Of a stretch of DNA of 43,421 nucleotides, positions 11,742-35,564 are shown piece after piece. Position numbers and translations under genes: made by a program. Position 1 is the first letter of the stretch. The number at the start of each line of letters is the position of its first letter. The stretch is from Flavobacteriales bacterium (GTDB lineage: Bacteria; Bacteroidota; Bacteroidia; NS11-12g; UBA955). Under the pieces are notes generated by a model. The model was given only the letters and a program-made list of their open reading frames with translations, was not told the DNA's origin and searched no databases. The stretch is taken from contig CANHQZ010000015.1 of the NCBI GenBank assembly GCA_947463125.1, positions 1-43,421 on the forward strand. The letters are read 5' to 3'.

Positions 11742-11757
11742 AAAATCTAGAAATAAG

Positions 11758-11784
11758 AAAGCCCCGGTTGACGGGGCTTTTTTT
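11758..11784 (+). terminator. Rho-independent terminator of glnN
   Basis: AAAGCCCCG (11758-11766) pairs perfectly with CGGGGCTTT (11772-11780) around a 5-nt loop GTTGA, followed by four more T residues. It begins 17 nt after the glnN stop codon and insulates the four-gene unit that follows. Confidence 0.92.
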
Positions 11785-11862: not shown

Positions 11863-14800
11863 ATGCAATTACGCGGATGGTATAGCGCCCTGCTATTGTG
11901 TGCTTTTTATTTTAGCACATCTGTTTTTGCTGCGCTTTCCCCTGCAGATTCGCTGGAATTGCGTGTGCGAAACGCTGCGGAGCGTGGAGCGGTGGCCGAT
12001 AATCTGGGGGCGGCATTTTATGCGCGTCCAGGTGGGGAAGTGCTTCTGCTTCCACCCAACAAGGACCTGCGTTTTGCCATACTTATCTATAATGTAGATA
12101 TTCTGCCGGATCGGGCCCAGTTCAGTGCCGGTCTCGCCTTCCGTGACGGAAAAAGCAATCAGCTGGTGGCATTCAAAACCGACAACATACACTTCTATTA
12201 TAAACAAGGTCTAACCGGGCCGGTTCGGATGCAACTGATGAGCAATGTGCTGCTGCGGCTGGGGCGGGCCGCTACCGTGCAGTTTATGGGAGGTTACAAC
12301 CAAACCTGGGCTGAGTTTGATTGTGGCGGACTCAAACAATTTGGAATTACCGCCGACGCAAGAATCAACAACAACGTGCTTGTGCCGGTGGATGCAAAAC
12401 AAAAACCCATCCCCGACAGTGCACTCACATCTCGCATTCAGCTGCAGGTAAAATCCTGGGATGAGCTGTTGGTGAGCATTAGCCTGAATCCTTTTCAGAT
12501 AAAGGGTTTTGATGGTTACGTTTTTAATGTTTCAAAAGCTACCCTGGATTTGAGCGGAGACATGAATGCCGAAGGCATGCAGCTGCCCGATAATTACCGT
12601 AATCCCGGGTTTGATGCTTCCTGGGAGGGATTTTATCTCGCCGAAGGTAAACTGCTTTTTCCCAAAAAATTCGCTTCAGATAGTCTGTCGGCAGCACTAT
12701 CATTCCGAAATCTCATTCTGGATGAAACCGGATTCTCCGGAAACATAACCGGCGAGCGCATCCTATCACCCGAAAAAGGCAACTTAGCTGGCTGGCGGTT
12801 CGGCATAGACAAGGCAAGTATCTCATTTTACAGAAACTGCCTTTCCAAGGCAGAACTGCTGGGGCCGCTGGGACTGCCTGTTTTGCCCGATTCGCAGTAC
12901 CTTCAATACCAGGCATTGCTTGGGTTTGAAGATGAATACAGTTTCCGGGTTTTTACACGCGATACCCTTTCATTTCCGGCATTAAAAGCAGGTAAAGTAC
13001 GGTTGGACCCCGGCAGTCAGGTGTATCTAGGCAGTGTGCGTGGAGAGATTAAAGCAGAAGCATTACTGCATGGACTGCTGAGTATTTCGATTGCAGGCAA
13101 TACTGCCGAAAAATCTCCTGCTGCAGGCTTTAATGGGATAGCCTTTCAGGGTTTGTCTGTTTCGAATACCGCTCCCAAATTAGCCATAGCGTATCTGGGG
13201 ATAGCCCGTTCGGGCGAGCCAACCCAACGTGTCAGCAGTTTTCCTGTCATGATTCATTCGGTGGGTGCGCGCACCGAAAATGATCAAATACACATACAGT
13301 TTGGTTTGGGATTAAATCTGTCTGAGAAAATCGGCTGCAGCACTCGGTTTGCGGTGATTACTGCGTTTAAAAGCGAACAGAGAACAGACCGATGGTTGTT
13401 TGTAAGGGTAAGGCTTGATGACATAGCGCTGAGGGCAGAAATTGCCAACATCCGTTTCAATGGCCGCATTTCCATGATGCGCAATGATCCGTTGTATGGT
13501 GATGGTTTTAGCGGTGCCATTGAATTTGGCGTGAAAATGGCAAGTCAAAAAGTCCAGGGTGCATGTTCGGCCATATTTGGCAACGTAAATCAGAACCGTT
13601 ACTGGTACTTTGATGCTTCTCTCCGCATTTCCGGAAATGGTATCCCACTCGCTCCGGCTATTTCCCTGAATGGGTTTCTGGGTGGAGCGTGGAACCGCAT
13701 GCGTGTTTTGAGGCCCGAAGAAAAAGCGCCGTCAGAAAATTATGGTCAGAGCGCCAACGGCAGGGTCTATGTTCCGGATTCAGCCTTTGGAATGGGCCTT
13801 AGGGCGGGTGTCTTCCTAAGTAGTACTTCGCCCGGTGCTTTTGAAAGCCATGCTGTTCTTGAGATGCAGTTTTATAAAGGAGGTGGATTGGCGAGTGTCA
13901 GTATGCTGGGTACGGCAGACTTTTTCATGAAGCCTGTGCCTGCGAATCAACAAAAATTTACACAACAAAGCCAAGCATTGTGTGGAATAACCAATCCCAG
14001 GCAATGGGTTTCGCAGTACAGACCTACAGGGCAGGTAGCAGCGGCACTGGAAATGGTGCTGGATTTTGATAAAGAAACCTACAAGGCAGACCTGGGAATG
14101 TATGTTAATCTTCAATCGCAATCCATGGGGGTATCCGGGCGGGGAAATAATGGTTTCGCAGGCCAGGTTAACCTTTATTTTTCACCGACAAACTGGTACG
14201 TATGGATTGGAAATAGCCTTCACCCGCTTGCGGTTCGGGCAATAGTGCCTAAATTACTCAATGCAGATGCTTCGGCCTACTTTATGGCTGGTACTTACAT
14301 ACTTCCTGCTCCCCCTTTGCCGGAAATGATTCAAAAATCTGTGGGTGCGAATGTGATTTTTGAACGAAATACAGAGCTAATTTCAAAGGGTGTGGGCTTT
14401 GCCCTGGGAGCCAACCTGAAATGTGATATCGGAGGTGACTATTCCGACAGAAAACTGGCCATTTATGCTTCCTGTTCAGCGATTGCCGGTTTTGATATTC
14501 TGCTGCAACAATACCACAACAGCGTATACTGCAAACAAACGGGGGAAACACCCGGTGTGAACGGCTGGTTTGCGCAGGGTAAATATTACGTAGGCGCAGC
14601 ATTGAACCTGGGTGTAAGTGTAAAAGACCATAAGATTCAGATTGCTAATATGAGCGTGGGTGCGGTGCTATATGGGCAGGGTCCAAACCCTGTTTATGCT
14701 GAGGGGATGGCAGGCATCAATATCAATACTGTGCTGTTAAAGTACAATGGCAACATACGCCTGCAGCTGGGCAATAAATGCGATTTGTCGGAAACAAAGT

Positions 14801-16401
14801 ATAATTCCATTCCCATTATTACCATTGCCGAACCGGCCCAGGGCAGGGATGTCTCTGTGCTGACCAGACCTGCCGTGAATTATGCCTTGCCGGTTATGTC
14901 TGAATTTCAGGATGTGGATCAGCGCCGACTTCGTTTCGCTCCTGATTTCCTGCTCATGCGCGACAATCTGAAAGTAGCCGGACAGTGGGTTGTTTCAGCC
15001 GGAGGTGAGCAGGCCGTATTTCAGCCTGCAGAGCCATTACAGCCATTTTCTTCCTATACCCTGCTTGCCACAATTTATCTCGAGGCGTGGATTCCGTCCA
15101 AGTCGGCATGGCAGCGGATAAAACAATCGGGAAGTGAGATTGTGGAACAAAAGTCGCTGCGATTTACAACCGGCGGTCTTCCCAGGGAAATACCCCTCAG
15201 CAATATTGCTGCAGCGTATCCGCATCCGGGGCAAGTAAACATGCATCGCGAATACAGCCGAAAGGGATTTGTGGAATTAAAAGTGCCACAGTGGCAATCA
15301 CTTACGTTACCGGGAACACGCATCGTAGCCCGCTTTTCAGCACAAAATGGAGAGTGCTGGGAGACATTGACTGAAATACGCGGAAACACCGCGCGCTTTG
15401 AGATTCCGGTAAATCTTAGCAATGATAAAGTATATCGTTTTTCATTGGTAAGGCAAAGCAGTACACAGCCTTTGGTAAACATTGCATCCGGAAATCAGGA
15501 AGGTCAGACATCACTGAAGAATGCGACATTGGGTTCGGGGCTGTTCAGTTCTGCGGCGGCCGGAGGCAATATGCAGAAGGCTGACAGGGTTGATAATACA
15601 GTGTTGCTAAGCTATTTGTTCCGTACTTCCGTCTATGCTCAGCCGACTCAAAAATGGATTTCTTGTAATGTTCGGGATACAGCTGTATCAGGTGCCGACA
15701 TTGCATTTGATTTGCAACAGGCAGCAGGCGAATACCTTGAATCGGCGGAACTCCGCCAATATTTATCGCTTTCCGTAGAGCTGAAACGCAATACCTGGTT
15801 CAGCCGCTCTGTTTATCCGTTGCTTTACGGGTATTACTATAAACTGCCGCCCGCCCTCCGCTCACAAATCAACTGGGGCCGTGACACCACCGGAGGGCTT
15901 ATTCCCCGCAAACCGCAAACTATAGAGCAGGCTGGAATTGACAGGGTAGAACTCAAAACATCTCATTTTACATCGGGTAAATATGTTTTTGATAAAACAG
16001 CGATACTGCTGACTTTCAACGGACCTCGTTTGATTGAAAGCGACCTGACGGTACTCAGGCAAAGCCTTACAGCAATGAGTGCAGGTATGGACAGAGCAAC
16101 TCTGGAAATGCTGACAGCCGGCATACCCGCTATCCAAAATAATCAAACACTGAACTCGGTCACAAAGCCGGTGCAGGCCCCGGTGCTGGGTAACGGAGGG
16201 CGTACACAGCCGGTCCCGGTAACACGGATTGGGACCCTCATTGCACAGCAAGCCGCTGCACGGAACCGGTTTTTAATGGCTTTGAACACCATTACAATTC
16301 CATCAATCCCAAAGGGATCCGTTATTCCGCTCACTGGAATCTATAAAATCTCGGATAACCCCGCGGTACCTCTGGCAGTTGGGAAAGGAGGTATTCTGTG
16401 A
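11863..16401 (+). CDS. Giant exported beta-rich protein, unknown function (unit gene A)
   Basis: This 1512-aa protein has a signal peptide (about residues 1-24, ending FYFSTSVFAA). The body is almost entirely short alternating hydrophobic/polar strands rich in G, N, S and Q, without transmembrane helices. Around residues 235-330 there is a distinctive segment with WEGFYLAEGKLLFPKKF, LILDETGFSGNITGE and GWRFGIDKASISFYRNCL. Around 980-1110 there is an Ig-like stretch ending AVFQPAEPLQPFSSYTL, in the style of SbsA/Big_5 domains, and another beta-sandwich around 1110-1200. I recognise no named family, and no T9SS sorting domain is visible at the end (...AVGKGGIL). The last codons contain a strong Shine-Dalgarno sequence for the next gene, whose GTG overlaps this stop (GTGA). 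It is probably periplasmic or at the outer membrane. Confidence 0.75.
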   Translation: MQLRGWYSALLLCAFYFSTSVFAALSPADSLELRVRNAAERGAVADNLGAAFYARPGGEVLLLPPNKDLRFAILIYNVDILPDRAQFSAGLAFRDGKSNQLVAFKTDNIHFYYKQGLTGPVRMQLMSNVLLRLGRAATVQFMGGYNQTWAEFDCGGLKQFGITADARINNNVLVPVDAKQKPIPDSALTSRIQLQVKSWDELLVSISLNPFQIKGFDGYVFNVSKATLDLSGDMNAEGMQLPDNYRNPGFDASWEGFYLAEGKLLFPKKFASDSLSAALSFRNLILDETGFSGNITGERILSPEKGNLAGWRFGIDKASISFYRNCLSKAELLGPLGLPVLPDSQYLQYQALLGFEDEYSFRVFTRDTLSFPALKAGKVRLDPGSQVYLGSVRGEIKAEALLHGLLSISIAGNTAEKSPAAGFNGIAFQGLSVSNTAPKLAIAYLGIARSGEPTQRVSSFPVMIHSVGARTENDQIHIQFGLGLNLSEKIGCSTRFAVITAFKSEQRTDRWLFVRVRLDDIALRAEIANIRFNGRISMMRNDPLYGDGFSGAIEFGVKMASQKVQGACSAIFGNVNQNRYWYFDASLRISGNGIPLAPAISLNGFLGGAWNRMRVLRPEEKAPSENYGQSANGRVYVPDSAFGMGLRAGVFLSSTSPGAFESHAVLEMQFYKGGGLASVSMLGTADFFMKPVPANQQKFTQQSQALCGITNPRQWVSQYRPTGQVAAALEMVLDFDKETYKADLGMYVNLQSQSMGVSGRGNNGFAGQVNLYFSPTNWYVWIGNSLHPLAVRAIVPKLLNADASAYFMAGTYILPAPPLPEMIQKSVGANVIFERNTELISKGVGFALGANLKCDIGGDYSDRKLAIYASCSAIAGFDILLQQYHNSVYCKQTGETPGVNGWFAQGKYYVGAALNLGVSVKDHKIQIANMSVGAVLYGQGPNPVYAEGMAGININTVLLKYNGNIRLQLGNKCDLSETKYNSIPIITIAEPAQGRDVSVLTRPAVNYALPVMSEFQDVDQRRLRFAPDFLLMRDNLKVAGQWVVSAGGEQAVFQPAEPLQPFSSYTLLATIYLEAWIPSKSAWQRIKQSGSEIVEQKSLRFTTGGLPREIPLSNIAAAYPHPGQVNMHREYSRKGFVELKVPQWQSLTLPGTRIVARFSAQNGECWETLTEIRGNTARFEIPVNLSNDKVYRFSLVRQSSTQPLVNIASGNQEGQTSLKNATLGSGLFSSAAAGGNMQKADRVDNTVLLSYLFRTSVYAQPTQKWISCNVRDTAVSGADIAFDLQQAAGEYLESAELRQYLSLSVELKRNTWFSRSVYPLLYGYYYKLPPALRSQINWGRDTTGGLIPRKPQTIEQAGIDRVELKTSHFTSGKYVFDKTAILLTFNGPRLIESDLTVLRQSLTAMSAGMDRATLEMLTAGIPAIQNNQTLNSVTKPVQAPVLGNGGRTQPVPVTRIGTLIAQQAAARNRFLMALNTITIPSIPKGSVIPLTGIYKISDNPAVPLAVGKGGIL
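16384..16400 (+). promoter_or_regulatory. Strong Shine-Dalgarno inside gene A for gene B
   Basis: AAAGGAGG (16384-16391) lies 6 nt before the GTG at 16398. Most starts in this window lack any Shine-Dalgarno, as is usual in Bacteroidota, so this one decides the GTG start of gene B. It is encoded within the gene A codons for GKGG, just before the overlapping stop. Confidence 0.7.
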
Positions 16402-18323
16402 GACTGATTTTAAGCTTGATTTTCTGTAGTTTACTGCAGCTAAATGCTGTAGCGCAGTCAAGCGGTTTTTCTCTGCAAACCCGGCGATTTGCCGATGCTG
16501 TATGGATTCGCTGGTCTGCACAGCGCCCCGATCTATTTAAAAAACAAAGTCCTCACGGATTTTCCCTACACAGGATCACCGTAAGCCGCGACGGAAAGGC
16601 ACTGGAAACCGAGGAGCGATATCGGTTAAATGCAGAACCCATTAGATGGGACACGGCTTCGAATCTGAGCGATACCCTACGAACGCTTAAAACGTTGTTT
16701 TTTTTCAAATCCGATTATACCGATGATATCCGCAAAAACATACAAAACAAGGAAATGGCAGACTTGGCGTGGTTGCAGGGTAATCTGATGCTGCTACGGG
16801 ATTTCAGGCTGGCACTCAACTGTGGTATGGGTTGGATTGATATGGATGCGAAAGCCAATGAAACGTATCTGTATGAATTGCAACCCTGGAACGATACGAC
16901 CCTGCTTGGATCTGCATACTGTGGGGTGTACCGGCAACAGGCAATTCCAAACCTCTCGCTGAAAAACGAAAAAAACAGAACTGTATTGCTACAAATAGCT
17001 GAATCGCCGGACTATTGGGGGTACATCATTGAAAAGGCACTGGATTCAGGCATGAACTTTAAACCCTTGTCTGCACAGCCTTTTGTCAATGGCACAAAAT
17101 CGCCGGATTTGCTGGTAAACGATTCACAGGGGTTTGCCTTCGGCCAAATTTATTACAGGGTTGCAGGTATCGATGCCTTCGGGCTTTCGGGACCGTGGTC
17201 GGATACGGCAGGCGTTTTTATGGTACCGGAAATGGTTTGTCCGGGCATCGAAAACTTTCGTCTTGTCGGAGATACGTTGCTGGAATTCAGCTGGAATATG
17301 CCTGACAGCTTGTTGCCCTACGTGAAAAAATCCTCTTTCAGTTACAGCAGTTCGGTAGATGAGGTATTCCTCCCTTTAAAGCTATGGAAGGCAGGTAGTT
17401 TTATGCGTGCACGTTGGCCTTCCGGGTGGTCTTCGGTTTATCTCAAACCGTCTTTTACCGATATAAACAGCGACGAATATTTTGGGCCTGTTGCATTTTT
17501 GCAACCCCCGGATTCCTTGCCACCTCCCGCTCCTGAAAGACTCTCAGCGGTTTGCGATTCATCGGGTATTGTTCGGATTCACTGGCGTTCGATCCAGGGT
17601 GCGGAGTATTACCGCCTCTATCGCGCCAATTACCGTAATGTGGAATTTACGGACCACTCCCATCTATACTTAAGTGATACGTTCTATTCTGATACGCTGG
17701 ATTTGAAAACCCTGCAAGACTCTGTTTACTATGCAGTCACTGCACTTGACAGCCGTTATAACGAATCGCCCCAAACCAAGGTGGCGTGCGCTGTGTACGA
17801 CATTATCCCGCCACCACCTCCTGCATTTTTGGGGTATGAACTCACGGATAAAGGATTTCTTCTGCGCTGGACCCAACACAGCGATGCTGCTTATTACACC
17901 CTTTACAGGCAAGGGAATCAGCCGATGCAGGTAATTGCGGATTCGGCAACCTACACCGATAGTACCGGCGTGGAAGAGGAGCATTATACCTATCACCTGA
18001 TAGCGACCGACCGCAATGGCAATGTTTCCGGGTCTTCAGCCAGACTATCGCTGAAGTTTCCGGCAAAATCTGAAATCCCTGAGGTCCCCAGACCCATTTG
18101 CCTGAATGACAGCCAGAAACGCCATTGCTGCATTTTTTGGGATTATCCTGAAATGGAAGGCATCTCGCATTTCAGGATTATGCTAAAAACCAACGGAAGA
18201 AAAAAAACCATGGGAACAGCCCGAGCAGATGAAAGGCAATATTGTCTGTTTGGGTATTTAAAATCTGAAGAGGATGAAATTCAGGTTATTGCTTATACCA
18301 AAAATGGAATGAAGAGCCGATGA
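16398..18323 (+). CDS. Exported fibronectin type III protein (unit gene B)
   Basis: The product is 641 aa from a GTG that overlaps the stop of gene A. The signal peptide is MRLILSLIFCSLLQLNAVAQ. The N-terminal part (about 21-190) is unrecognised. From about 190 on there are FN3-like beta-sandwiches. One is at 190-285 (DYWGYIIEKALDSGMNFKPL, IYYRVAGIDAFGLSGPWSD). Clearer ones lie at about 375-470 (PERLSAV, HWRSIQGAEYYRLYRANY, YYAVTALDSRYNES) and 471-560 (GFLLRWTQHSDAAYYTLYRQ, YHLIATDRNGNVSG). A last, divergent one runs to the C-terminus. There are no transmembrane segments after the signal peptide and no T9SS sorting domain. FN3 arrays usually mediate protein or glycan binding, so a structural or adaptor role alongside gene A is plausible. 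The next gene overlaps by ATGA. Confidence 0.8.
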   Translation: MRLILSLIFCSLLQLNAVAQSSGFSLQTRRFADAVWIRWSAQRPDLFKKQSPHGFSLHRITVSRDGKALETEERYRLNAEPIRWDTASNLSDTLRTLKTLFFFKSDYTDDIRKNIQNKEMADLAWLQGNLMLLRDFRLALNCGMGWIDMDAKANETYLYELQPWNDTTLLGSAYCGVYRQQAIPNLSLKNEKNRTVLLQIAESPDYWGYIIEKALDSGMNFKPLSAQPFVNGTKSPDLLVNDSQGFAFGQIYYRVAGIDAFGLSGPWSDTAGVFMVPEMVCPGIENFRLVGDTLLEFSWNMPDSLLPYVKKSSFSYSSSVDEVFLPLKLWKAGSFMRARWPSGWSSVYLKPSFTDINSDEYFGPVAFLQPPDSLPPPAPERLSAVCDSSGIVRIHWRSIQGAEYYRLYRANYRNVEFTDHSHLYLSDTFYSDTLDLKTLQDSVYYAVTALDSRYNESPQTKVACAVYDIIPPPPPAFLGYELTDKGFLLRWTQHSDAAYYTLYRQGNQPMQVIADSATYTDSTGVEEEHYTYHLIATDRNGNVSGSSARLSLKFPAKSEIPEVPRPICLNDSQKRHCCIFWDYPEMEGISHFRIMLKTNGRKKTMGTARADERQYCLFGYLKSEEDEIQVIAYTKNGMKSR

Positions 18324-20452
18324 AAAAATTCATAATAATACCGTGCCTTTTGATGATACAGGCGCTTTGCGGAAAACAACATTATCTGCTGGAGTTTAGC
18401 GGGGATTATACCTGGGGAGGCGGAAATGCCGATTTTGTAAAAGTTAAAATTATTTATCATTTTGACGGTAAATCCAATATCTATGATTCCCTGATTTTGC
18501 GCGGACCTGTTCAAAAAGTATTCAGAAGGTCCTTTGCCCAAACTCCCGATTCGTTGTCTTTTCAGATTGTGGACCATTCCAGGCGGATTCCACAGCAGAA
18601 CACATTTGTAATGGGCAGTGCTTTGCAGCATTGCAGTCGTTTGATATTCCCCAAACTCATGAAAAATGCGCCGTGTGAGTCCTTTTATTACAACGAGCTG
18701 GGCCTCATTTGTGCTTCGCTAAAACTCAGTGTATACGATGATGTTTTACCGAACCTGCCCGAAAAAAACGGATTGCTGCAAAATGCGGTCTATTGCGAAT
18801 CAGAAGCAAGAAATTTCAGACTTAATGCGCCTTGCCACATGGCTTTCAGGCCGTCAGGAGGAATGTTGCAGTGGTATGAAAGTACCGCGCCACAGGGACC
18901 ATGGACAAAAACAGATACGGGCCTGACCTGCAATCCATCTGCCCGCTTGCTTTCGGGGCAAACACCACTGTTCAATCAGCATAGGTATTATAAGCTTGTG
19001 ACGGATTCATTCACTGTAACCGGCGAACGTAGCAAATCTAGCGGTGTGTTTGGCCCTGTATCGTATTATTTGAATCCCCGGGCTGATTCAATCACCGTGT
19101 ATGGCAGAAACTGCAGCGAAACCCAAAAGCGAATGGATATAGCGCTTACCAACGACAGTGCACATCAGCATGCTGAAGGAATCAATGTATGGCTCAAAAA
19201 CCTGGATAATCCTGCACCCGATGGCTTGTGGTTTTTTGGAAATTGGGAAAATGCAACCGGCATACGAATAGGCAAGATGACGGGGCAATATCATGCCCTT
19301 GCATCACAAAATGCTGGCAAGACTTTCTATACGGTGAATGGATGGTATGCAATAGGATTGGATTTTACCCCCTGGAATGACTTTGACTGCGGTTTTCGCT
19401 GGGATACTGTTGTTGTCAGCGGCCCGTATGGAATGGAAATTAATCCCCGCATATTATGCGGAGAAAAATGTCCTGGAAACAGCGATGGAAAGTTTACCAT
19501 TACTGGGAAAAGTGCGTTATGGAATGATACACTTTTGGTGAGTGTAAAAGGGTTGGGCTTATACAAACCGGGTGATACAATAACAGGTTTGCCACGCGGA
19601 GATTATGATTACTCGGTTTCAGGCCGGGGTGGATGTTTTGAAAAAGGACAGTTCCGAATTCCCGGCTCTCCTTTTTTTGGAAAAAAATTCAGGGTAGATA
19701 CGACGCTTTGTCTTGGACAGAAACTGTTCATCAACGCAAAGGATTCGAACGCCAGCGCTTTTGAGGCAACCAAACCCAATGGTGATAAACTGTTGAATGA
19801 TACGTTTACGGCGTATGAAAATGGTCGCTGGCATTTGCAATGGACCAATGATTCGGGTTGTGTGGCGCGCGATACGTTACATGTTCAAAGGCGCAGCCTT
19901 GCAGTTACCCATGATTTTTTAATGCCGGCACAGGTGAGGCTTTCCGATACTGCCTGGGCCATAGATCACAGCCGGCCTAAACCCCTCAGCAGCAGCTGGA
20001 ATGCAGAAAAGGCCACGTGGGAGCGCGCGCAAAATGAAAACCTAAGGTTTTATATAAAAGATACCGGACTGTACCGCATTACCCTCACCTCCCAATTCGA
20101 TTCGGGTTGTACTTTCCGCCGCACTAAAGTCTTGCATATCGTCGGGGTAAATGATACAGCCGGATTCCTGCCTCAGCTTGGTTATCAGGGCCCGTTGATT
20201 AAGCAGTTTGTACTCAAACCCAATCCTTCTGATGGAATAAAGTTTTCAGCGGAAATAACACTCAGAAAGCCTTCCGATATTGTCCTGATGCTGCTAGATC
20301 CCATTTCAGGAATTGAGCTACGCAAAAAGGAGTACAAACAGATACAGCGGTTGTCCGAACATCCCTTTGATATTGAAGCTGAGGGAGTTTATTACCTCAG
20401 AGTATTGGCCGAAAACGAGACCCAAATTCGCAAAATACTCATCATTAAATAG
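18320..20452 (+). CDS. T9SS-sorted surface protein with SprB/PKD-like domains (unit gene C)
   Basis: This 710-aa protein has a signal peptide (MKKFIIIPCLLMIQALCG). The middle holds Ig/PKD-type domains. Around 383-445 a SprB-repeat-like unit reads CPGNSDGKFTITGKS ... DTITGLPRGDYDYSVSGRGGC. Around 460-535 a second unit has LCLGQKLFINAKDSN ... WTNDSGCVARDTLHV, and a third runs to about 620. The last 80 residues are a typical type A T9SS C-terminal sorting domain: FVLKPNPSDGIKFSAEITLR, DIVLMLLDPISGIEL, EGVYYLRVLAENETQIRKIL. The protein should cross the outer membrane through the T9SS (SprA is encoded in this window) and be retained at the surface or released. Its ATG overlaps the gene B stop; gene D starts 7 nt after its TAG. 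Confidence 0.85.
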   Translation: MKKFIIIPCLLMIQALCGKQHYLLEFSGDYTWGGGNADFVKVKIIYHFDGKSNIYDSLILRGPVQKVFRRSFAQTPDSLSFQIVDHSRRIPQQNTFVMGSALQHCSRLIFPKLMKNAPCESFYYNELGLICASLKLSVYDDVLPNLPEKNGLLQNAVYCESEARNFRLNAPCHMAFRPSGGMLQWYESTAPQGPWTKTDTGLTCNPSARLLSGQTPLFNQHRYYKLVTDSFTVTGERSKSSGVFGPVSYYLNPRADSITVYGRNCSETQKRMDIALTNDSAHQHAEGINVWLKNLDNPAPDGLWFFGNWENATGIRIGKMTGQYHALASQNAGKTFYTVNGWYAIGLDFTPWNDFDCGFRWDTVVVSGPYGMEINPRILCGEKCPGNSDGKFTITGKSALWNDTLLVSVKGLGLYKPGDTITGLPRGDYDYSVSGRGGCFEKGQFRIPGSPFFGKKFRVDTTLCLGQKLFINAKDSNASAFEATKPNGDKLLNDTFTAYENGRWHLQWTNDSGCVARDTLHVQRRSLAVTHDFLMPAQVRLSDTAWAIDHSRPKPLSSSWNAEKATWERAQNENLRFYIKDTGLYRITLTSQFDSGCTFRRTKVLHIVGVNDTAGFLPQLGYQGPLIKQFVLKPNPSDGIKFSAEITLRKPSDIVLMLLDPISGIELRKKEYKQIQRLSEHPFDIEAEGVYYLRVLAENETQIRKILIIK

Positions 20453-20459
20453 GCAAAGG

Positions 20460-22073
20460 GTGCGCAGGTTATTAGCGATATTGATGTTATTTTTCGGAGG
20501 TCCAGCATGGCTTTTTTCGCAGGACGTGGAGAAGGTGCTGAAAAACAAACCTGTTGAGGCGAACGGAACTGTGCAGTTGCAGCAAATGCTGAATCGCAAA
20601 TTCGGTGATGCGGGCAACGATCAGCCATACAACTATGTGCTCAGCGGAAATCTGAACCTAAAATTATTTGGCGTAATCGATGCGCCGTTTCAGATGCTGT
20701 TTTCCAATATGGGCAGCCGGTTTTCGCAGCCAACATTTAACCAAACAGCGCTGCACCCGCAGTACAAATGGATTCAGCTGCACCTGGGAAGAATTGCTGT
20801 GAACTGGTCGCCCCAAACCGTGGGCGGGCATGTATTTCAGGGCGCTGCCACCGATCTTACCCCTGGCAACTGGACATTCAGTGCCTTGTATGGCCGTTTT
20901 CAGAAAGCCGTTTCAGCCCCGCCGGACTCACTCTCAGGCAATGTAATTCCTGCGTTCAGGCGTATGGGATATGGGTTCAGGGCCGCTCACCGGCATAAAA
21001 ACACCCATGTGCAGGCCACCTATTTTCAGGCTTCCGACGACACCGGCAGTGTGCAAATCGGACCTTTTGCAGCGCAAAAACCAATCGGAAACAGGGTTTA
21101 CGGTTTGCTTTATGACCAAATCGTGTTCAAAAAACTCATGCTACAGGCCACGTGGAACCAAAGCCTTATTAATTCGGATTTGCGGCTACCCGATAAATGG
21201 ACAAACAGGCAACATTACAAAGCAAGCCTGGCCTGGCAGGGCAAAGCGCATCAGTGGAACCTTGCCTATGAGCACACCGATCCCGATTACCACACGCTGG
21301 GCGCCTATTACTTTAACAACGACATGGAAAACATCAGTCTGGGCGGCAATCTACAGGCGCTAAAAGGGAAGTTGAGCCTGAGCGGACAGGCGGGTTTGCA
21401 GCGCGACAACCTCGATAACCGAAAGAGTTCTTCCATGCGCAGGCAGGTATACAGCCTGCAGGCGCAATACCGGCTGGGCAAAAGTGGCATGCTGTCGGGT
21501 TCCTATTCCAGTTTTACGAGCTTCACCAATACACGGCCGTTCACGGATTATCTGCAACCCAACAGCCCTATGCTGGCCTGGGATACGCTCAATTTCAGAG
21601 AAATTTCAGAATCCGGGAATGTGCAGCTGGCCCTGCCCATGCCCAAATGGGGGAAATGGCAGGGCAGTTTCACGGGCAACGGACTTTGGCAGCGTAATGC
21701 CGGTGCACCGGGCAGCAACAGCGATTTTTACAACGCCGGTGCGGGTTTGGTGGCCCAGCACACCCAAAATGGCGCCACGCTGGCCCTGCAACTGAATGCC
21801 GGACAAAACATGGCAGGGGAGATGGTGATGCGGAACCTGGGGCCTGTGATATCCTGCAGTCTGCCACTGATGGATAAAAAGCTGAGAACGTCCGTTTCGT
21901 GGTCGCGCATTGTATCGCAGGTGCAAAACCAAAGAAACGTGATGAGCAGCGCCCGGTTTCAGCTGAACCGGCAATGGAAAAAACAATCACTACAGGCTAT
22001 GCTGCAGTTTCAGCAATCCCAAGGCAGGGGCTTTATGCAGGCGGTAGTGGGGTATCAGGTGGTGGTGAGGTAG
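20460..22073 (+). CDS. Outer-membrane beta-barrel protein (unit gene D)
   Basis: I place the start at the GTG at 20460, giving 537 aa with a clean signal peptide (RRLLAILMLFFGGPAWLFSQ after the initiator). An in-frame ATG at 20313 would overlap gene C by 140 bp and put 49 hydrophilic residues ahead of the signal peptide. The GTG lies 7 nt after the gene C stop, preceded by GCAAAGG. After an initial short helix the protein is continuous amphipathic strands with aromatic girdles, for example QLHLGRIAVNWSPQTVGGHV, DLTPGNWTFSALYGRFQKA, LMLQATWN and KLSLSGQAGLQRD. It ends ...AVVGYQVVVR with alternating residues, as expected for a barrel. I recognise the style but no named family. It is probably the outer-membrane anchor or pore for the products of genes A-C. 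Confidence 0.75.
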   Translation: MRRLLAILMLFFGGPAWLFSQDVEKVLKNKPVEANGTVQLQQMLNRKFGDAGNDQPYNYVLSGNLNLKLFGVIDAPFQMLFSNMGSRFSQPTFNQTALHPQYKWIQLHLGRIAVNWSPQTVGGHVFQGAATDLTPGNWTFSALYGRFQKAVSAPPDSLSGNVIPAFRRMGYGFRAAHRHKNTHVQATYFQASDDTGSVQIGPFAAQKPIGNRVYGLLYDQIVFKKLMLQATWNQSLINSDLRLPDKWTNRQHYKASLAWQGKAHQWNLAYEHTDPDYHTLGAYYFNNDMENISLGGNLQALKGKLSLSGQAGLQRDNLDNRKSSSMRRQVYSLQAQYRLGKSGMLSGSYSSFTSFTNTRPFTDYLQPNSPMLAWDTLNFREISESGNVQLALPMPKWGKWQGSFTGNGLWQRNAGAPGSNSDFYNAGAGLVAQHTQNGATLALQLNAGQNMAGEMVMRNLGPVISCSLPLMDKKLRTSVSWSRIVSQVQNQRNVMSSARFQLNRQWKKQSLQAMLQFQQSQGRGFMQAVVGYQVVVR

Positions 22074-22570: not shown

Positions 22571-23011
22571 TTAGTTTTTCTTTGCATCACTAGATTTACC
22601 AAAAAAGTAATAGTCTAATGAAAATTTACTTGGTCCTGCTAAAAAGATAGTTAGCATCACTGCTGCATATGCAAATGCCATTTCTGCATCTCCAAAAAAA
22701 TCACCCTTATCAGCAATAAAACCAGCTACTAACATCGTAATAAAAATTAAGAAAGCGCCAAGCCTAGAGAATAGACCTAAAACCAACATAATGCCTCCAA
22801 ATAATTCAGCTCCTGTTCTCAAGTAAGCCATAAAAAAGGGTAGGGGGAAATGTAGATCCTTCTCAAGATAGCCAGCAAAGCCGGCCATTGCTTTTGCGTC
22901 AAAAAAACCGCTCCCATGATTGATAAAAAGAATTCCAATTATTACTCTGAGAACTAATATGTAGTTTTGAGTAATTGGTTCTGTTCCGTTAAATAATTTT
23001 GTCATCTTCAT
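22571..23011 (-). CDS. DoxX family membrane protein
   Basis: This 146-aa protein has four predicted transmembrane helices. DoxX hallmarks are RVIIGILFINHGSGFFDAK near the N-terminus (helix 1 with the conserved H-G), FFMAYLRTGAELFGGIMLVL (helix 2), GLFSRLGAFLIFITMLVAGF (helix 3) and AFAYAAVMLTIFLAGPSKFS (helix 4), then a short polar tail. DoxX proteins are inner-membrane proteins linked in some bacteria to thiol or oxidative stress complexes; the exact role here is unknown. The gene is AT-rich, stands alone and is flanked by 13-bp inverted repeats, which suggests recent acquisition as a cassette. Confidence 0.88.
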   Translation of the reverse strand: MKMTKLFNGTEPITQNYILVLRVIIGILFINHGSGFFDAKAMAGFAGYLEKDLHFPLPFFMAYLRTGAELFGGIMLVLGLFSRLGAFLIFITMLVAGFIADKGDFFGDAEMAFAYAAVMLTIFLAGPSKFSLDYYFFGKSSDAKKN

Positions 23012-23942: not shown

Positions 23943-24902
23943 ATGAGCCACACACCCGAACACGTTGAATGTCTTATCATCGGCAGCGGTCCTGCCGGTT
24001 ACACCGCCGCCATTTACGCTGCCCGCGCCGATATGAAGCCCGTTTTGTACGAAGGCCTGCAGCCCGGCGGACAGCTTACCATCACCACCGAAGTAGAAAA
24101 CTATCCCGGTTACCCTGATGGAATCATGGGCCCCGAAATGATGGACATGTTTAAAAAGCAGGCCGTGCGCCTGGGAACCGACGTGCGTTTTGGGATGGTT
24201 ACTTCCGTTGAATTTAAAAACGGCGGGCCCCAGAAAGTGATGGTAGACGGCACCCATGAAATCATAGCCGATGCCGTAATCATCTCTACCGGTGCAAGTG
24301 CCAAATGGCTGGGCATCCCCAGCGAACAGCGCCTGAACGGCAGCGGGGTGAGTGCCTGTGCGGTGTGCGACGGATTTTTCTACCGCAACTCCGATGTGGC
24401 CATCGTAGGTGCCGGCGATACCGCCTGTGAAGAAGCCAGCTACCTGGCGAAAATTTGTTCGAAAGTGTATATGCTGGTCCGTAAGGATGAATTCCGCGCC
24501 AGCAAAGCCATGCAGCACCGTGTGATGAACACACCCAACATTGAAGTGCTCTTCAATACCGAAACCGATGAAATCCTCGGCCAGCAAACTGTGGAGGCTG
24601 TTCGGGTGAAAAACAACCAAACCGGTGAAACCCGCGAAATTGCCATCAAAGGATTTTTCGTAGCCATCGGTCATACGCCCAATACGGATATCTTCAAGCC
24701 CTATATCAACATGGATGAGCAGGGTTATATCATCACCAAACCGGGCACTTCCTACACGAATGTGGAAGGGGTTTTCTGTGCTGGTGATGCGCAGGATAAG
24801 GTTTACCGCCAGGCTGTAACAGCCGCAGGCAGTGGCTGTATGGCTGCCCTTGACGCTGAGAGATGGCTCGCTTCCCGCAACTCGGCAAGCGCAGGCGCCT
24901 GA
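23943..24902 (+). CDS. trxB: Thioredoxin-disulfide reductase
   Basis: This 319-aa flavoprotein transfers electrons from NADPH to thioredoxin. The FAD-binding motif is GSGPAGYTAA (residues 14-23). The redox-active pair is C139/C142 in ACAVCDG, and the NADPH-binding motif is GAGDTACEEA (about 156-165). The C-terminal FAD motif reads GVFCAGDAQDKVYRQAVTAAG. Length is normal. The TGA stop shares a base with the ATG of the next gene (TGATG at 24900-24904), so the sialidase-like gene is probably translated by re-initiation. It would serve the Bcp peroxiredoxin and other thioredoxin-dependent enzymes. Confidence 0.97.
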   Translation: MSHTPEHVECLIIGSGPAGYTAAIYAARADMKPVLYEGLQPGGQLTITTEVENYPGYPDGIMGPEMMDMFKKQAVRLGTDVRFGMVTSVEFKNGGPQKVMVDGTHEIIADAVIISTGASAKWLGIPSEQRLNGSGVSACAVCDGFFYRNSDVAIVGAGDTACEEASYLAKICSKVYMLVRKDEFRASKAMQHRVMNTPNIEVLFNTETDEILGQQTVEAVRVKNNQTGETREIAIKGFFVAIGHTPNTDIFKPYINMDEQGYIITKPGTSYTNVEGVFCAGDAQDKVYRQAVTAAGSGCMAALDAERWLASRNSASAGA

Positions 24903-26458
24903 TGTATTTGCAGCGGGGATTCATAGCGCTGTTTTTCTTTGCCAATACCCTTTTGGCACAAACCCCGCTCATTGATCTTGTTCCCGGTGGACTGGAGACC
25001 AACGAACCCAGTTTGGCTATCCACCCCACCAATCCAAATATCCAGATTTTAGGTTCCAACACCAGTTACTTTTTTGTGTCTGAAAATGCCGGTATCACCT
25101 GGAAATCTGTTTCACTTAAGCCGGCAGAGGGTTTCTACGGCGATCCGGTTACCTTTATTGACAAACAAGGCCGTTTTTACCTGCTAAGCCTGGCGCAGAA
25201 TGCAACCTTGCAGTGGCCCGAACACTTTGACAGGATTGTGCTGCAGACATCTGAAGACATGGGCAAAACATGGAAAAGCACCGGTATTGGGCACCGCCCG
25301 GGAAAAATGCAGGACAAACCCTGGATAGCTTTGGATGAAAATAAAAAAAGCCCGTTTAAAGGCAGTGTGTATGTGTCATGGACCGAGTTTGACAAATATG
25401 GCAGCAAAAACCCCGCTGATTCCAGCCGCATTCGTTTTGCCTACCGGAGAAATGCCGACGATACCTTTGCTACCGTGGTGGTGAGTGATTCCTGCGGTGA
25501 TGCGGAAGACGGCGACAATACTTTGGAAGGAGCTACCTGTGCGGTGGGTCCCATGGGCGAAATCTATTGCGTGTGGGCCGGAAAAAATAAGATATGGATG
25601 GACATCAGCACGGATGGCGGAAAAACCTGGGGCAAAGACCAAATTATAGCCGAACAGCAATCCGGCTGGGCCATGGATGATATTCCGGGGCTGATGCGCA
25701 GCAACAATATGCCATTTGTGAAATGCGATTCAAAAGGCCGTCTTTACCTCGTTTTTGGCGATAAAAGCAGGAGTGATTATGATGTTTTTCTGAAAATGAG
25801 CACCGATGCCGGTAAAACATGGACTTCAGAAATGCGCTTGCACAGCGACCCTGCTGGAAACGGACGGGATCAGTACATGCCGCACATGGCCTTGGATGCT
25901 TCCGGTGATCTGGTTTACGTGCTTTGGTATGATCGCAGGCATTCTGCCCAAAATATATATACCGATGTGTATTTGAGGCCCATCGTGAAAGGTAAGCCCG
26001 GTAAGGAATACAGGGTTACCAATCAGTCTTTCTGTCCGCCCGGAAGGAAGGTTTTTTTCGGTGATTATATTGCCGTTGCGGCCGCAAAAAAGGTTATACG
26101 TGCTGCATTTACGCACTATGACAATACCACGGCACTGGCATCGGTAAAGGTGGCTGCACTCACGCAATCGATGGTAAAACGCAATGCGGCTGTACCTGTA
26201 AATGCCTACATGGAAATGGGAGTATTGCCCGATACGGCTTTGTTTATGGTGCATTTTTCCCTGCCGGGAATGAAGAGTTGCACACTGGAAATGAGTCGGG
26301 GCAGACAAATTGTACACAAACAGCTTTTTGATCCCCTGCCTGCGGAAGAACAGGAAGTAGCACTGCCGCTGAATAAAATTCCACCCGGAGTATACAAGGT
26401 TTCACTCTCGGCCAAAGGCCGCAAAATGACACGGGAACTGTATATTGGCAAGCCTTAA
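24902..26458 (+). CDS. Exported sialidase-like Asp-box protein, probable T9SS cargo
   Basis: The product is 518 aa from the ATG at 24902, giving the signal peptide MYLQRGFIALFFFANTLLAQ. An in-frame ATG at 24863 inside trxB would add 13 basic residues and is less likely. Four Asp-box motifs (S-x-D/N-x-G-x-T-W) lie at about residues 60-67, 117-124, 236-243 and 300-307, the signature of a sialidase-type six-bladed propeller. I do not see the arginine triad clearly enough to claim sialidase activity. The last 80 residues (MVHFSLPGMKSCTLEMSRGR ... PPGVYKVSLSAKGRKMTREL) have the shape of a T9SS sorting domain but lack the usual P-N-P start. The stop codon overlaps the stop of the opposing hutH. Confidence 0.82.
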   Translation: MYLQRGFIALFFFANTLLAQTPLIDLVPGGLETNEPSLAIHPTNPNIQILGSNTSYFFVSENAGITWKSVSLKPAEGFYGDPVTFIDKQGRFYLLSLAQNATLQWPEHFDRIVLQTSEDMGKTWKSTGIGHRPGKMQDKPWIALDENKKSPFKGSVYVSWTEFDKYGSKNPADSSRIRFAYRRNADDTFATVVVSDSCGDAEDGDNTLEGATCAVGPMGEIYCVWAGKNKIWMDISTDGGKTWGKDQIIAEQQSGWAMDDIPGLMRSNNMPFVKCDSKGRLYLVFGDKSRSDYDVFLKMSTDAGKTWTSEMRLHSDPAGNGRDQYMPHMALDASGDLVYVLWYDRRHSAQNIYTDVYLRPIVKGKPGKEYRVTNQSFCPPGRKVFFGDYIAVAAAKKVIRAAFTHYDNTTALASVKVAALTQSMVKRNAAVPVNAYMEMGVLPDTALFMVHFSLPGMKSCTLEMSRGRQIVHKQLFDPLPAEEQEVALPLNKIPPGVYKVSLSAKGRKMTRELYIGKP

Positions 26459-31561: not shown

Positions 31562-32479
31562 GTGAGTATTCAGGTAAATCAATTGACCAAGATATACGGC
31601 ACCCAAACCGCCGTAGACAGCATTTCATTTGAAATTGCTCCCGGTGAGATTGTAGGCTTTCTGGGTCCCAACGGTGCCGGAAAAAGCACCACCATGAAAA
31701 TGCTCACCTGCTATATTCCACCCACATCGGGCGAAGCTAACGTCTGTGGCATGGATGTTTCAGACCAAAGCATACAGGTTAGAAAACACGTGGGGTATCT
31801 GCCCGAGCATAATCCGCTGTACCTCGATATGTATGTAAAGGAATACCTTGCATTTGCCGCAGGTATGGGCGGAGTTAAAAACATTAACAGCCGCGTGGAG
31901 GAAGTGATTGCGCTTACCCACCTGGGCAAAGAAAAACACAAAAAAATCGGGCAGCTTTCCAAAGGATATCGTCAGCGTGTGGGGCTGGCACAGGCCATTA
32001 TTCACGACCCGGATGTGCTGATTCTGGACGAGCCTACCAGCGGTCTGGATCCCAACCAGGTAATGGAAATACGTGATCTGATAAAAAACCTGGGAAGCAA
32101 CAAAACCATTATGCTGAGCACGCACATCATGCAGGAGGTAGAGGCCATTTGCAGCCGGGTTATCATTATTGATAAAGGGAAAATAGTGGCCGACGATAAG
32201 CTGGAAAACCTGCGCAGCCTGAAGTCAGAAAAATGGCTGGTGCGCGTGCAGTTTGCTTCTGCGGTCAATGAGCGTGATATTCAAAACATAAAGGGTTTGC
32301 TGCAGGCAACCCACCTCGGCAACAATGCATGGCGCCTGGCCGGCGACAATGCGCAGTTCAGACAGGCGGTTTCGCAGTTTGCGCTGTCTTCAAACCTTGA
32401 AGTGCTGGAGCTGGTAAGTGAAAAAGACTCCCTGGAATCGATATTCAGACAGTTAACCAACCATGTGGACCATTTATAA
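31562..32479 (+). CDS. gldA: Gliding-motility ABC transporter ATPase GldA
   Basis: This 305-aa ABC ATPase starts with GTG. Walker A is GPNGAGKST (about residues 35-43), the signature LSKGYRQRVGLA is near 137-148, Walker B is VLILDEPTSGLD, and the switch histidine is in MLSTHIMQE. A C-terminal extension (about 220-305) is typical of ABC-2-type ATPases such as GldA/NodI. With GldF and GldG it forms an inner-membrane ABC complex associated with gliding in Flavobacterium. It overlaps gldF by 17 bp. Confidence 0.92.
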   Translation: MSIQVNQLTKIYGTQTAVDSISFEIAPGEIVGFLGPNGAGKSTTMKMLTCYIPPTSGEANVCGMDVSDQSIQVRKHVGYLPEHNPLYLDMYVKEYLAFAAGMGGVKNINSRVEEVIALTHLGKEKHKKIGQLSKGYRQRVGLAQAIIHDPDVLILDEPTSGLDPNQVMEIRDLIKNLGSNKTIMLSTHIMQEVEAICSRVIIIDKGKIVADDKLENLRSLKSEKWLVRVQFASAVNERDIQNIKGLLQATHLGNNAWRLAGDNAQFRQAVSQFALSSNLEVLELVSEKDSLESIFRQLTNHVDHL

Positions 32480-33191
32480 AAAAGAGATACGCAGTTTTTT
32501 GAGTTCGCTCATTGCCTATGTGGTGATGCTCGTATTTCTGGGTGCTACCGGCCTGTTTATGTGGGTAATCAAAGGCAATTCTGTGTTTGATCTGGGCCTG
32601 GCAAGCATGCAGGTGATGTTTGAGATGGCGCCTTACATTTTTATCTTCCTGATTTCCGCCATCACCATGCGCAGTTTTTCCGAAGAGAAAAGGCTTGGCA
32701 CCTTGGAAACACTGACTACAAGGCCTGTTTCCGATCTGGGAATAATACTGGGCAAGTACTTTGCAGGCGTTTCGCTGCTGCTAATCGCTTTGCTGCCAAC
32801 CCTGGTCTATTATTATAGTATATCGCAGCTCGGCAATCCACAGGGCAATGTAGATACCGGTGCCATGTGGGGCAGCTATTTGGGCCTGGTATTGCTGGGA
32901 ATGGCATACACCGCCATGGGTATTTTTTCATCCGCTGTTACCGATAATCAGATTGTGGCGCTCATATGCAGTATGGCGCTGGGATTCTTTTTTTATGTAG
33001 TGCTTGGTATGATGGGTGATATTTCGGCGCTGGATGCCATCGGCAAAAGCCTGGAATGGTTTAGCCTGGAATACCATTACGACAGCATGAGCCGTGGCGT
33101 GCTGGATACCCGCGACATGATTTACATGCTCAGTTTCAGTGCCCTGTTTATAGGGCTTACCAAAACCGTGTTTGAAAGCAGAAAATGGTGA
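32463..33191 (+). CDS. gldF: Gliding-motility ABC transporter permease GldF
   Basis: This 242-aa ABC-2 permease has about six transmembrane segments and begins MWTIYKKEIRSFLSSLIAYV. The conserved cytoplasmic loop TMRSFSEEKRLGTLETLTTR follows helix 2, as in GldF and other ABC-2 permeases. It overlaps gldA by 17 bp and gldG by 7 bp, so translation of the three is tightly linked. It supplies the membrane channel for GldA. Confidence 0.92.
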   Translation: MWTIYKKEIRSFLSSLIAYVVMLVFLGATGLFMWVIKGNSVFDLGLASMQVMFEMAPYIFIFLISAITMRSFSEEKRLGTLETLTTRPVSDLGIILGKYFAGVSLLLIALLPTLVYYYSISQLGNPQGNVDTGAMWGSYLGLVLLGMAYTAMGIFSSAVTDNQIVALICSMALGFFFYVVLGMMGDISALDAIGKSLEWFSLEYHYDSMSRGVLDTRDMIYMLSFSALFIGLTKTVFESRKW

Positions 33192-34951
33192 TGAAGAAAC
33201 GCAGACTGCATAAAACCCAAAGCTGGCTGGAACTGATGATGGTTCTGGTGGGGCTTGTTGTAATCAATGCCTTGTCTTCTCTTTATTACAAGCGAATTGA
33301 CCTTACCCAGGAAAAACGATATACCCTGAGTGAGACCAGCCGAAAACTGGCCTCTAAAATTGAAGAAAAACTCTATTTCAAGCTGTATCTCGATGGTGAG
33401 ATGAGCGCAAAATTCAAACAGTTGCGCAACGAGATCCGCGATATGGCCTATGAATTCCGCGAAGCCAGCGGAGGAAAAATGGAAATTGAGGTTACCGATC
33501 CACTGAAGGATAAAGATAAAAAAGAAGTAGCCGGTATCCTGGAGAATTTTGCCGAACGAGGCATGGAGCCGATGCGCGATGTGGATATGGAAGATGGTGA
33601 TGAAACACGCATCAAGTACCTGATTCCGGGTGCAGAATGCCTGTACAGGGGTAAAACCATTCCCATACGGTTCATGCAGTTTGATGTTTCCATGGACATG
33701 GAAACCAATATCAAACGCGCTGTAGACAATATTGAATATGAAATGGCCAATGCCCTGCGACAGTGCGTAACGGAAAAGGCCAGAAAAATTGTGGTTGCCG
33801 ACGGCAACGGAGAAATGCTGGATGCCCGAGTAGGGTCATTTGCAACCGAATTGGGCCGGTATTACAACCTTGAGGCGCTTAACCTCAATGTGGCCGATCC
33901 TGAATGTGCAAGACCTTTTGAGGCTCAGCTGAAGGCCGCACCCGACAGTGCTGAAATCGTGCTGCTGCGAAACCTGCAGCGCAGGCTCAACAGTGCCGAT
34001 CTGCTCATGGTTATTAAACCTGAAAAGGATTACTCGCCCGCAGAGTTGTTTTTGATAGATCAGTTTATCATGAAAGGAGGCAAGGTAATGTGGTTGCTGG
34101 ATCCGGTGCATATCGAGATAGACAGCTTTCAGAGCGCCCCTACTGTGATGGCGATGAACAAAGGACTTGAGAATATTACGACAGGTCTTTTCGGTTATGG
34201 AGTAGGACTCAATGCCGATTTGCTGCAGGATATGATGTGCAACCGAATTCCACTCCCTGCCGGGGGAAGAATGCAGCTGGTGTCATTCCCTTACTTTCCT
34301 TTGTTTACAAGCAAAAACACATCCCATATCATAACCAAAAATGTGGGAGCCGTGTGGACACAGTTTCCGGGAACGCTGAAAGTAAAAAAGCGCGATGGCT
34401 TGAATACCACACCATTGCTTCTTTCTTCGGCTTATACAAAAGTTGCCAATGCTCCGGCCACAGTGGAATTGATTACGGTGGCCATGATGAGTACGGATAA
34501 AAACTACGTTAAAACCATGAAGGCCGGTCCTCAGGTAAGCGGGGTGCTGATGGAAGGGAAATTCAAATCGCCCTTTCAATATCAAAAAAGACCGGACCTT
34601 GGATCCTATCTGCCGGAAGGCAAGAGTGCAATGGTGGTTATTTCCGACGGGGATATCATCCGAAATTTTGTGAGCAGCAAGGGCGGAAATTTCCCCACCG
34701 GCTATGATCGCTACAGCCAGATAACCTTTGCCAACCAGAAGTTTCTACAAAACTGCGTGGATTATCTGATTGATGATAACGGTCTCATTGAAATCAGGGC
34801 CAGGGAAACACAGTTGCGCCTGCTGGATCAGGTGAAAGTGAAGGAAGAAAAAACCTACTGGCAATGGTTCAATATCCTGCTGCCACTGGGCTTTATCCTT
34901 TTGCTCGGATTGGTTAACTTTATCATTCGCCAAAGAAAATATACACGCTAA
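33185..34951 (+). CDS. gldG: Gliding-motility ABC transporter component GldG
   Basis: This 588-aa protein has an N-terminal membrane anchor (LELMMVLVGLVVINALSSLY), a large domain beginning with the DLTQEKRYTLSETSRKLASK motif that marks the GldG/ABC_transp_aux family, and a C-terminal transmembrane helix (WFNILLPLGFILLLGLVNFI) followed by RQRKYTR. Two other in-frame starts (33188 and 33191) are equally possible. It ends 2 nt before the ruvA ATG, so ruvA is in the same operon. Confidence 0.92.
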   Translation: MVMKKRRLHKTQSWLELMMVLVGLVVINALSSLYYKRIDLTQEKRYTLSETSRKLASKIEEKLYFKLYLDGEMSAKFKQLRNEIRDMAYEFREASGGKMEIEVTDPLKDKDKKEVAGILENFAERGMEPMRDVDMEDGDETRIKYLIPGAECLYRGKTIPIRFMQFDVSMDMETNIKRAVDNIEYEMANALRQCVTEKARKIVVADGNGEMLDARVGSFATELGRYYNLEALNLNVADPECARPFEAQLKAAPDSAEIVLLRNLQRRLNSADLLMVIKPEKDYSPAELFLIDQFIMKGGKVMWLLDPVHIEIDSFQSAPTVMAMNKGLENITTGLFGYGVGLNADLLQDMMCNRIPLPAGGRMQLVSFPYFPLFTSKNTSHIITKNVGAVWTQFPGTLKVKKRDGLNTTPLLLSSAYTKVANAPATVELITVAMMSTDKNYVKTMKAGPQVSGVLMEGKFKSPFQYQKRPDLGSYLPEGKSAMVVISDGDIIRNFVSSKGGNFPTGYDRYSQITFANQKFLQNCVDYLIDDNGLIEIRARETQLRLLDQVKVKEEKTYWQWFNILLPLGFILLLGLVNFIIRQRKYTR

Positions 34952-34953
34952 TT

Positions 34954-35559
34954 ATGTTTGATTTTATAGAAGGAAATATTGAAAAAATCAGCCCTACCCA
35001 TGTGGTGATTGAAAACGGCGGGATGGGCTATCTCATGTCCATCAGTATTTGTACCTATGAGAAGATAAAATCAAAAAAACTGGCCAGGGTTTTTGTGGAA
35101 CAAACCTTCAAGGTAGAAAATCAAAATCCGGTAGGAATTGTACTTTACGGATTCAGTGAACCGGAGGAAAGAGAAATGTTTCGACTGCTAACCTCTGTGA
35201 GTGGCGTGGGAAATAATACAGGCATACTGATGCTCAGCAGCCTGGATGCGGAAGCCCTGTCCTCGGCCATTTTGAACGGGAATGTAGGATTATTGAAGAG
35301 CATTAAGGGCATTGGTGAAAAAACGGCCCAGCGTATTGTGCTGGAACTGCGCGATAAATTGGGTGGCAAAAAAATAAAAGGCGGGGCAACGATGGTGAAT
35401 CCGGGTGTGTCTGATGCAATGAATGAGGCCTTATCTGCCCTGCTGAGCCTCGGTTACAACAAAGCTGCCGCGGAAAAAGCACTGATGAAGGTAACCGATA
35501 ATGGTAAAACAGTATTAACGGTTGAGGAACTTATTCGTAATTCACTTAAAATATTGTAA
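34954..35559 (+). CDS. ruvA: Holliday junction branch migration protein RuvA
   Basis: This 201-aa protein binds four-way junctions and loads RuvB. It begins MFDFIEGNIEKISPTHVVIE (domain I OB fold). The helix-hairpin-helix pair follows with LLTSVSGVGNNTGILMLSS and LLKSIKGIGEKTAQRIVLEL. The C-terminal domain III (about 150-201, NEALSALLSLGYNKAAAEKA) is the RuvB-contacting part. ruvA immediately upstream of sprA is an arrangement I recall from other Bacteroidota. Confidence 0.97.
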   Translation: MFDFIEGNIEKISPTHVVIENGGMGYLMSISICTYEKIKSKKLARVFVEQTFKVENQNPVGIVLYGFSEPEEREMFRLLTSVSGVGNNTGILMLSSLDAEALSSAILNGNVGLLKSIKGIGEKTAQRIVLELRDKLGGKKIKGGATMVNPGVSDAMNEALSALLSLGYNKAAAEKALMKVTDNGKTVLTVEELIRNSLKIL

Positions 35560-35564
35560 ATTGC
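35557..35564 (+). promoter_or_regulatory. Possible -7 box for sprA
   Basis: TAAATTGC overlaps the ruvA stop codon and resembles TAnnTTTG at most fixed positions. It would give a leader of about 58 nt before sprA. No -33 element is clear, so sprA may equally be read from the gld promoter. Confidence 0.25.

Follow-up and report, generated by a model that had tools for sequence, protein, structure and literature searches.

What does a cell do with four overlapping or nearly abutting genes that all appear to encode exported proteins? The question is raised by a 43,421-nt contig of a Flavobacteriales bacterium (C15, analysed entire and called the window below) from an assembly of 2.34 Mb that is 99% complete (genome G000). 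Gene A (11863-16401, ATG start) encodes a giant all-beta protein of 1512 aa, gene B (16398-18323, GTG start) an FN3-type secreted protein of 641 aa, gene C (18320-20452, ATG start, TAG stop) an Ig/PKD/SprB-type protein of 710 aa with a putative type A sorting domain of the type IX secretion system (T9SS), and gene D (20460-22073, GTG start) a wide-bore outer-membrane beta-barrel of 537 aa; all lie on the plus strand. The initial annotation of this DNA had treated the four as a surface unit of unknown function; that the function is wholly unknown is not supported: the parts are those of the known neighbourhood of TANFOR toxins (SprB, FN3, PKD and sorting domain; PMC7073777), together with a barrel. 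We consider it fairly probable that ABCD is the envelope apparatus of the TANFOR polymorphic-toxin system, with D as its outer-membrane gate. What is new is the link that ties D and A to a toxin class already known.

Joint inheritance with TANFOR toxins

TANFOR proteins are polymorphic toxins of Bacteroidetes with the TANFOR domain at the N-terminus and exchangeable toxin domains at the C-terminus; among the genes around them SprB, FN3, PKD and T9SS sorting domains are over-represented (PMC7073777, by Jana, Salomon and Bosis, 2020). In that study export of the toxins by the T9SS is a hypothesis presented with no test, and the main text mentions no barrel, porin or operon. The share of genomes reported to carry TANFOR, 5.8%, is probably an undercount, because the curated TIGR02542 model scores the TANFOR giant of our own genome at E 0.23 only, below its cut-off.

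The pairing of D with TANFOR is close to perfect across the phylum. In a sample of 198 Bacteroidota genomes, with D counted at E<=1e-25, D was found in 42 and a strong TANFOR match (profile A7) in 43, and 42 genomes have both (Fisher 2e-42); 19 genomes give a strong match to the A profile. Six genera show species-by-species agreement between D and TANFOR, the two being either both there or both missing. TANFOR lies within 15 kb and on the same strand for 52 of the 60 D genes, mostly at less than 150 bp and with D directly upstream. D is a regular partner of TANFOR. The giants beside D range from 1100 to >4000 aa and many fall outside the family defined by the A-core, the region of protein A described below. 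An all-against-all comparison showed the N-terminal domains of most of them, about 280 aa long, to be homologous, and this domain matches the TANFOR domain TIGR02542 at 1e-12, below the curated cut-off; a profile search of the TANFOR domain against solved structures gave no convincing relative. At loci L083-L086, L093, L094, L101 and L102, D is directly followed by secreted giants with a TANFOR-like N-terminus, conserved over several families and about 3300-4140 aa long, although the stretch truncates some of them.

Gene fusions join the same parts. TANFOR and the D barrel form a single ORF (open reading frame) in G272 (L096 5009-7720), and G292 and G236 likewise have the two within one open frame; TANFOR precedes the barrel in all three. 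TANFOR and the A-core are a single ORF in many loci of the order D-A-B (L030, L032, L036, L071-L077, L079, L080 and L096) and separate genes in G117, G121, G278, G254 and G160. Complete loci with the parts split occur in two arrangements: A-B-SprB proteins-C-D-TANFOR giant in G121 and G117, and D-A-B-TANFOR giant in G254 and G160, where the giant of G254 ends in an AHH nuclease (5e-12). Genes for SprB/PKD, FN3 and sorting-domain proteins adjoin TANFOR in relatives such as G117, G121 and G278. The number of SprB-type proteins between B and C varies, with three in tandem in G121 (394-443 aa; L068 9441-13202) and two in G117.

The unit was followed more closely in 97 related genomes by searches and neighbourhood analysis. 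A-B-C-D recurs in identical order in G005, G006, G017 and G003 (A partial in the last), a grouping far above chance; A-B-C is found in G035, G037 and G043, A-B-D in G013, and the arrangement D-A-B recurs more widely in more distant loci. A occurs with D in 15 of 15 cases and with TANFOR in 14 of 15, and D with TANFOR in 17 of 20 (p <1e-12 each, or about 1e-4 if every genus is counted once). Within the genus of the window, A, D and TANFOR are all present in G000, G003, G005 and G006, and G002 and G004 have neither A nor D and a TANFOR match that is marginal only (E about 5e-6). When the window is compared with G005, the first two codon positions prove far better conserved than the third in all four genes, which are therefore under purifying selection.

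The initial annotation had asked whether the order is kept in related genomes. It is kept, and the genes do not scatter independently, except that D leaves A-B-C in one genus. In genus g1 D stands with ABC, and TANFOR is elsewhere; in genus g13 D stands with a TANFOR giant and ABC elsewhere. The g13 gene was considered as the lost D of the ABC unit and rejected, being a D with another partner.

The proteins of the unit and the giant of this genome

D has no match in Pfam or NCBIfam (E up to 1), and therefore none to PorP/SprF or PorV, and none in PADLOC; among solved structures, profile searching yielded neither a convincing relative nor a sequence match to MtrB. The AlphaFold2 (AF2) model of D (pLDDT 87.4, pTM 0.77) is a barrel with 25 strands of at least 8 residues, about 25-26 strands in all, and has neither a periplasmic POTRA region nor room for one. 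MtrB and the usher pores are barrels that hold or pass folded proteins. The closest structural match is MtrB of MtrCAB (6r2q_B; Z 18.8, rmsd (root-mean-square deviation) 5.9, 447 residues), a barrel of about 26 strands that sheathes a folded protein and aligns over nearly all of D (31-536), but at 8% identity, and none of the genes in the unit was recognised as a cytochrome partner. The usher pores FimD and PapC come next (Z 15-16, rmsd 4.4-5.0). Ushers likewise have a wide pore, of 24 strands, for folded subunits; unlike them, D has no Pfam match and no neighbours from recognised usher or chaperone families. Two-partner secretion (TpsB/TpsA) and other pairs of a barrel and a giant offer a parallel in gene layout, with a dedicated barrel gene beside a giant secreted protein that is recognised by its N-terminal domain, whereas TpsB has 16 strands and POTRA domains and D lacks a match to that family and is linked to two extra surface proteins.

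Weak D matches of about 840-930 aa were rejected as ABCD units: the three cases inspected are a second barrel subfamily beside FecR and CHASE2-cyclase genes. At L088, L089 and L090 (in G235, G122 and G102) this subfamily, of about 840-920 aa and distantly related to D, belongs to a conserved gene cluster whose other products are a CHASE2-adenylate cyclase, a protein with a FecR domain and a weakly TANFOR-like protein (about 360-400 aa). The cluster occurs in many Bacteroidota and is possibly an outer-membrane-to-cyclase signalling unit.

Protein A has no match in Pfam, NCBIfam or PADLOC; no known enzyme or toxin domain was found in it by the Pfam/NCBIfam search, and no convincing relative by profile search against solved structures. 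It consists of the A-core, a CopC/Big_5-like Ig domain and a moderately variable C-terminal region. Its AF2 model (residues 22-1110; pLDDT 80.8, pTM 0.48) consists almost wholly of beta structure; residues 441-949 form 22 long strands of strongly amphipathic character, and residues 962-1084 the Ig domain (Z 10.8, rmsd 2.6). We did not accept the Foldseek matches to LptD, ApoB and ushers as identifying A (TM <= about 0.2, rmsd mostly >10); they indicate only that A is modelled as a long-stranded amphipathic sheet, which could be either a membrane sheet or a lipid-type groove. Family alignments show homology between the A-core and the segment that follows TANFOR in other giants. A diverged TANFOR domain hidden in A was rejected, as hhalign of the TANFOR profile against the A alignments gave <1% probability. 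We also rejected A as a polymorphic toxin because its divergence between species is gradual: identity to the G005 and G006 copies declines with no abrupt exchange of the tail. By the tests applied to its sequence, A is not itself a TANFOR toxin.

B gives weak FN3-type matches (Pfam/NCBIfam) in the window copy, its relatives match PF00041 at 3e-7 to 3.5e-8, and it adjoins A in nearly all A loci. C ends in a Por_Secre_tail/TIGR04183 match (residues 634-708) that scores 15.2 bits against a cut-off of 23; among its relatives L027 reaches 27.2 and L023 26.2, against a Pfam cut-off of 27. Pfam recognises SprB repeats in relatives (L024 C, 3e-29) but none in C of the window. A, B and D yielded no sorting domain.

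A and B are joined by a GTGA overlap, B and C by an ATGA overlap, and 7 nt separate C from D, whose mechanical ORF opens earlier, at a TTG at 20313 within C. Judged by eye, all four N-termini have the appearance of Sec signal peptides. Most of what the initial annotation had said of the single genes and proteins thus stands: the overlaps and gap agree with the ORF calls and the sequence, the signal peptides with our reading, the FN3 identity of B with the matches in window and relatives, the beta-rich A without a recognisable family and the barrel D with models and searches, and a sorting domain was found in the third protein only. A matched no enzyme. For C its account holds in part, with a weak sorting domain that reaches the Pfam cut-off in a relative and SprB domains that Pfam finds in the relatives alone. 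Upstream, a terminator-like hairpin (11755-11783, plus strand; 12-pair stem, T tail) follows the glutamine synthetase III gene and forms the boundary between that gene and the unit. Downstream, a DoxX-like gene (22571-23011, minus strand) follows D; it is not kept beside D in G005.

G000 contains one D, in the window, and one strong TANFOR giant, a protein of 1804 aa encoded on contig 58 (L121 6128-11542, minus strand). Its TANFOR domain matches the profile at 5e-78, and at 1.2e-110 with its own sequence included in the alignment. The giant is 74% identical to its orthologue in the sister species G005 up to residue 1640 and unrelated past it, and different small ORFs, of 75 or 81 aa, follow directly after the two genes. 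Read from the sequence, the exchanged tail and the small ORF are the pattern of a polymorphic toxin with a candidate immunity gene. Around residue 870 the giant carries a metalloprotease-type motif, HELGH, and its relatives L119 and L124 give weak reprolysin matches; the motif may possibly serve self-processing that releases the toxin tail. A Fic-type protein with the motif HPFQDGNGR is encoded near the giant on the opposite strand (L121 4581-5621).

Compared with the published TANFOR systems, the FN3, SprB/PKD and sorting-domain proteins of the unit are of the kinds reported as neighbours, the A-core stands behind TANFOR in other giants and the giant of this genome has a polymorphic tail; unlike in those systems, A of the window has no TANFOR domain and the toxin is unlinked, and D and A are absent as constant partners from PMC7073777.

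Gate, anchor or type IX export

D is probably the gate by which TANFOR toxins leave the cell or sit on it, because the surface unit is inherited together with these toxins across the phylum. In such a mechanism the TANFOR domain of the giant toxin would dock to D from the periplasmic side, which is supported by the fusions, where TANFOR stands before the barrel, at the position that periplasmic or plug domains usually occupy. D, as a very wide barrel, would then thread the giant outward to the surface or hold it there. A would act as a giant beta-sheet partner, which other lineages have in one polypeptide with TANFOR, and B and the T9SS-sorted C would complete the complex outside the cell. The cargo in G000 would be the 1804-aa protein of contig 58.

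Several observations weigh against D as gate and ABCD as toxin apparatus. The adjacency of D and TANFOR would also fit an anchor, an assembly factor or a receptor. The likeness of the modelled D to MtrB and the ushers is evidence of width and not of function, because many barrels match in gross fold. In G000 itself the TANFOR giant is unlinked to ABCD, on another contig, and its tail has no recognised toxin domain; the TANFOR-type profile has no match anywhere in the window, A included. G017 has ABCD, and no TANFOR giant was found in it. The association of D with SprA, given below, is confounded by lineage, as the 44 genomes without SprA come mostly from one family.

The chief rival to D as gate is export of the toxin by the T9SS, with D merely an anchor. 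The window itself contains sprA, the gene for the T9SS translocon (35629-42729, plus strand; TIGR04189, 2239.8 bits), at a locus separate from ABCD; the host thus has a T9SS, and about 60 sorting-domain matches over the cut-off were counted in G000. SprA is known as a protein-conducting barrel. It occurs in 154 of the 198 genomes, and D in 42 of these 154 against 0 of the 44 without it (p 6e-6). Every one of the 42 D genomes, which are also the genomes with both D and TANFOR, contains SprA, so that a need for the T9SS is likely, at least for C. If the T9SS exported the TANFOR toxins as well, A, B, C and D would be surface receptors or anchors, and D a plug or receptor that acts after export; the sorting domain on C and the enrichment of sorting domains near TANFOR (PMC7073777) are consistent with this. 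T9SS export is, however, a hypothesis only in that study, and the constant partner of TANFOR is D, mostly directly upstream of it or fused to it, whereas most genomes with SprA have no TANFOR. The unit resembles T9SS systems (SprA/PorV) in the type A-like sorting domain of C and in the SprA of its genome; it differs in that A, B and D have no sorting domain that we found and in that D is not SprA. We regard export of the toxins by the T9SS as rather unlikely, and expect the T9SS to export C only among the four.

Other genes of the window have a bearing on the T9SS without touching the unit. Genes like gldA, gldF and gldG for ABC proteins precede sprA in a gliding/T9SS cluster (31562-42729) that begins about 9.5 kb after the unit, a nearness that may be chance. 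A secreted protein with BNR/Asp-box repeats (sialidase-like; 24863-26458) has a C-terminus resembling a T9SS sorting domain; its gene adjoins that of thioredoxin reductase and is conserved in the genus.

ABCD might instead be a stand-alone adhesive or matrix unit of the SprB kind, whose co-occurrence with TANFOR would come from genomic islands or a lifestyle that the two have in common. Adhesins typically contain FN3, Ig and SprB-type domains, and both the separate contigs of ABCD and TANFOR in G000 and the lone unit of G017 would fit. We find this improbable in the face of the TANFOR-A-core and TANFOR-D fusions, the loci that unite all parts, and the joint presence and absence of D and TANFOR within six genera. 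The dedicated assembly of the initial annotation survives as an envelope or surface unit of four genes in conserved order, in which barrel and giant beta-protein are accompanied by an FN3 protein and a single protein sorted by the T9SS; its adhesin-like form with a T9SS-delivered tip is not supported. That A is an exported toxin or a pore acting on target cells, with D as its dedicated transporter and the TANFOR giant as a second, independent cargo, is very improbable given the gradual divergence of A and the lack of a toxin domain found in it, even though some TANFOR giants have a body homologous to its core and its 22 amphipathic strands come nearest, in gross arrangement only (rmsd 8-15), to membrane barrels and usher pores.

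The reading of ABCD as TANFOR envelope apparatus can be taken further, to a proposal that we advance tentatively and would not count as the expected outcome. Polymorphic toxins would have a dedicated export pathway apart from the SprA pore, in which a 26-strand barrel of the D family recognises TANFOR and passes or displays the giants, aided by the giant beta-sheet protein A and by partners of the FN3 and SprB kinds. Such a pathway would amount to an as-yet unnamed secretion system, widespread in the phylum, for which the T9SS places the outer parts only.

Since 2020 the passage of TANFOR toxins across the outer membrane has been in question, with the T9SS as a proposed answer. The near-perfect pairing of TANFOR with a single barrel family and the fusions between them name a concrete candidate for the gate. 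If D has this role, a phylum that dominates many microbiomes would possess an extra route of toxin delivery, and a large set of giant surface proteins that now lack annotation would be explained.

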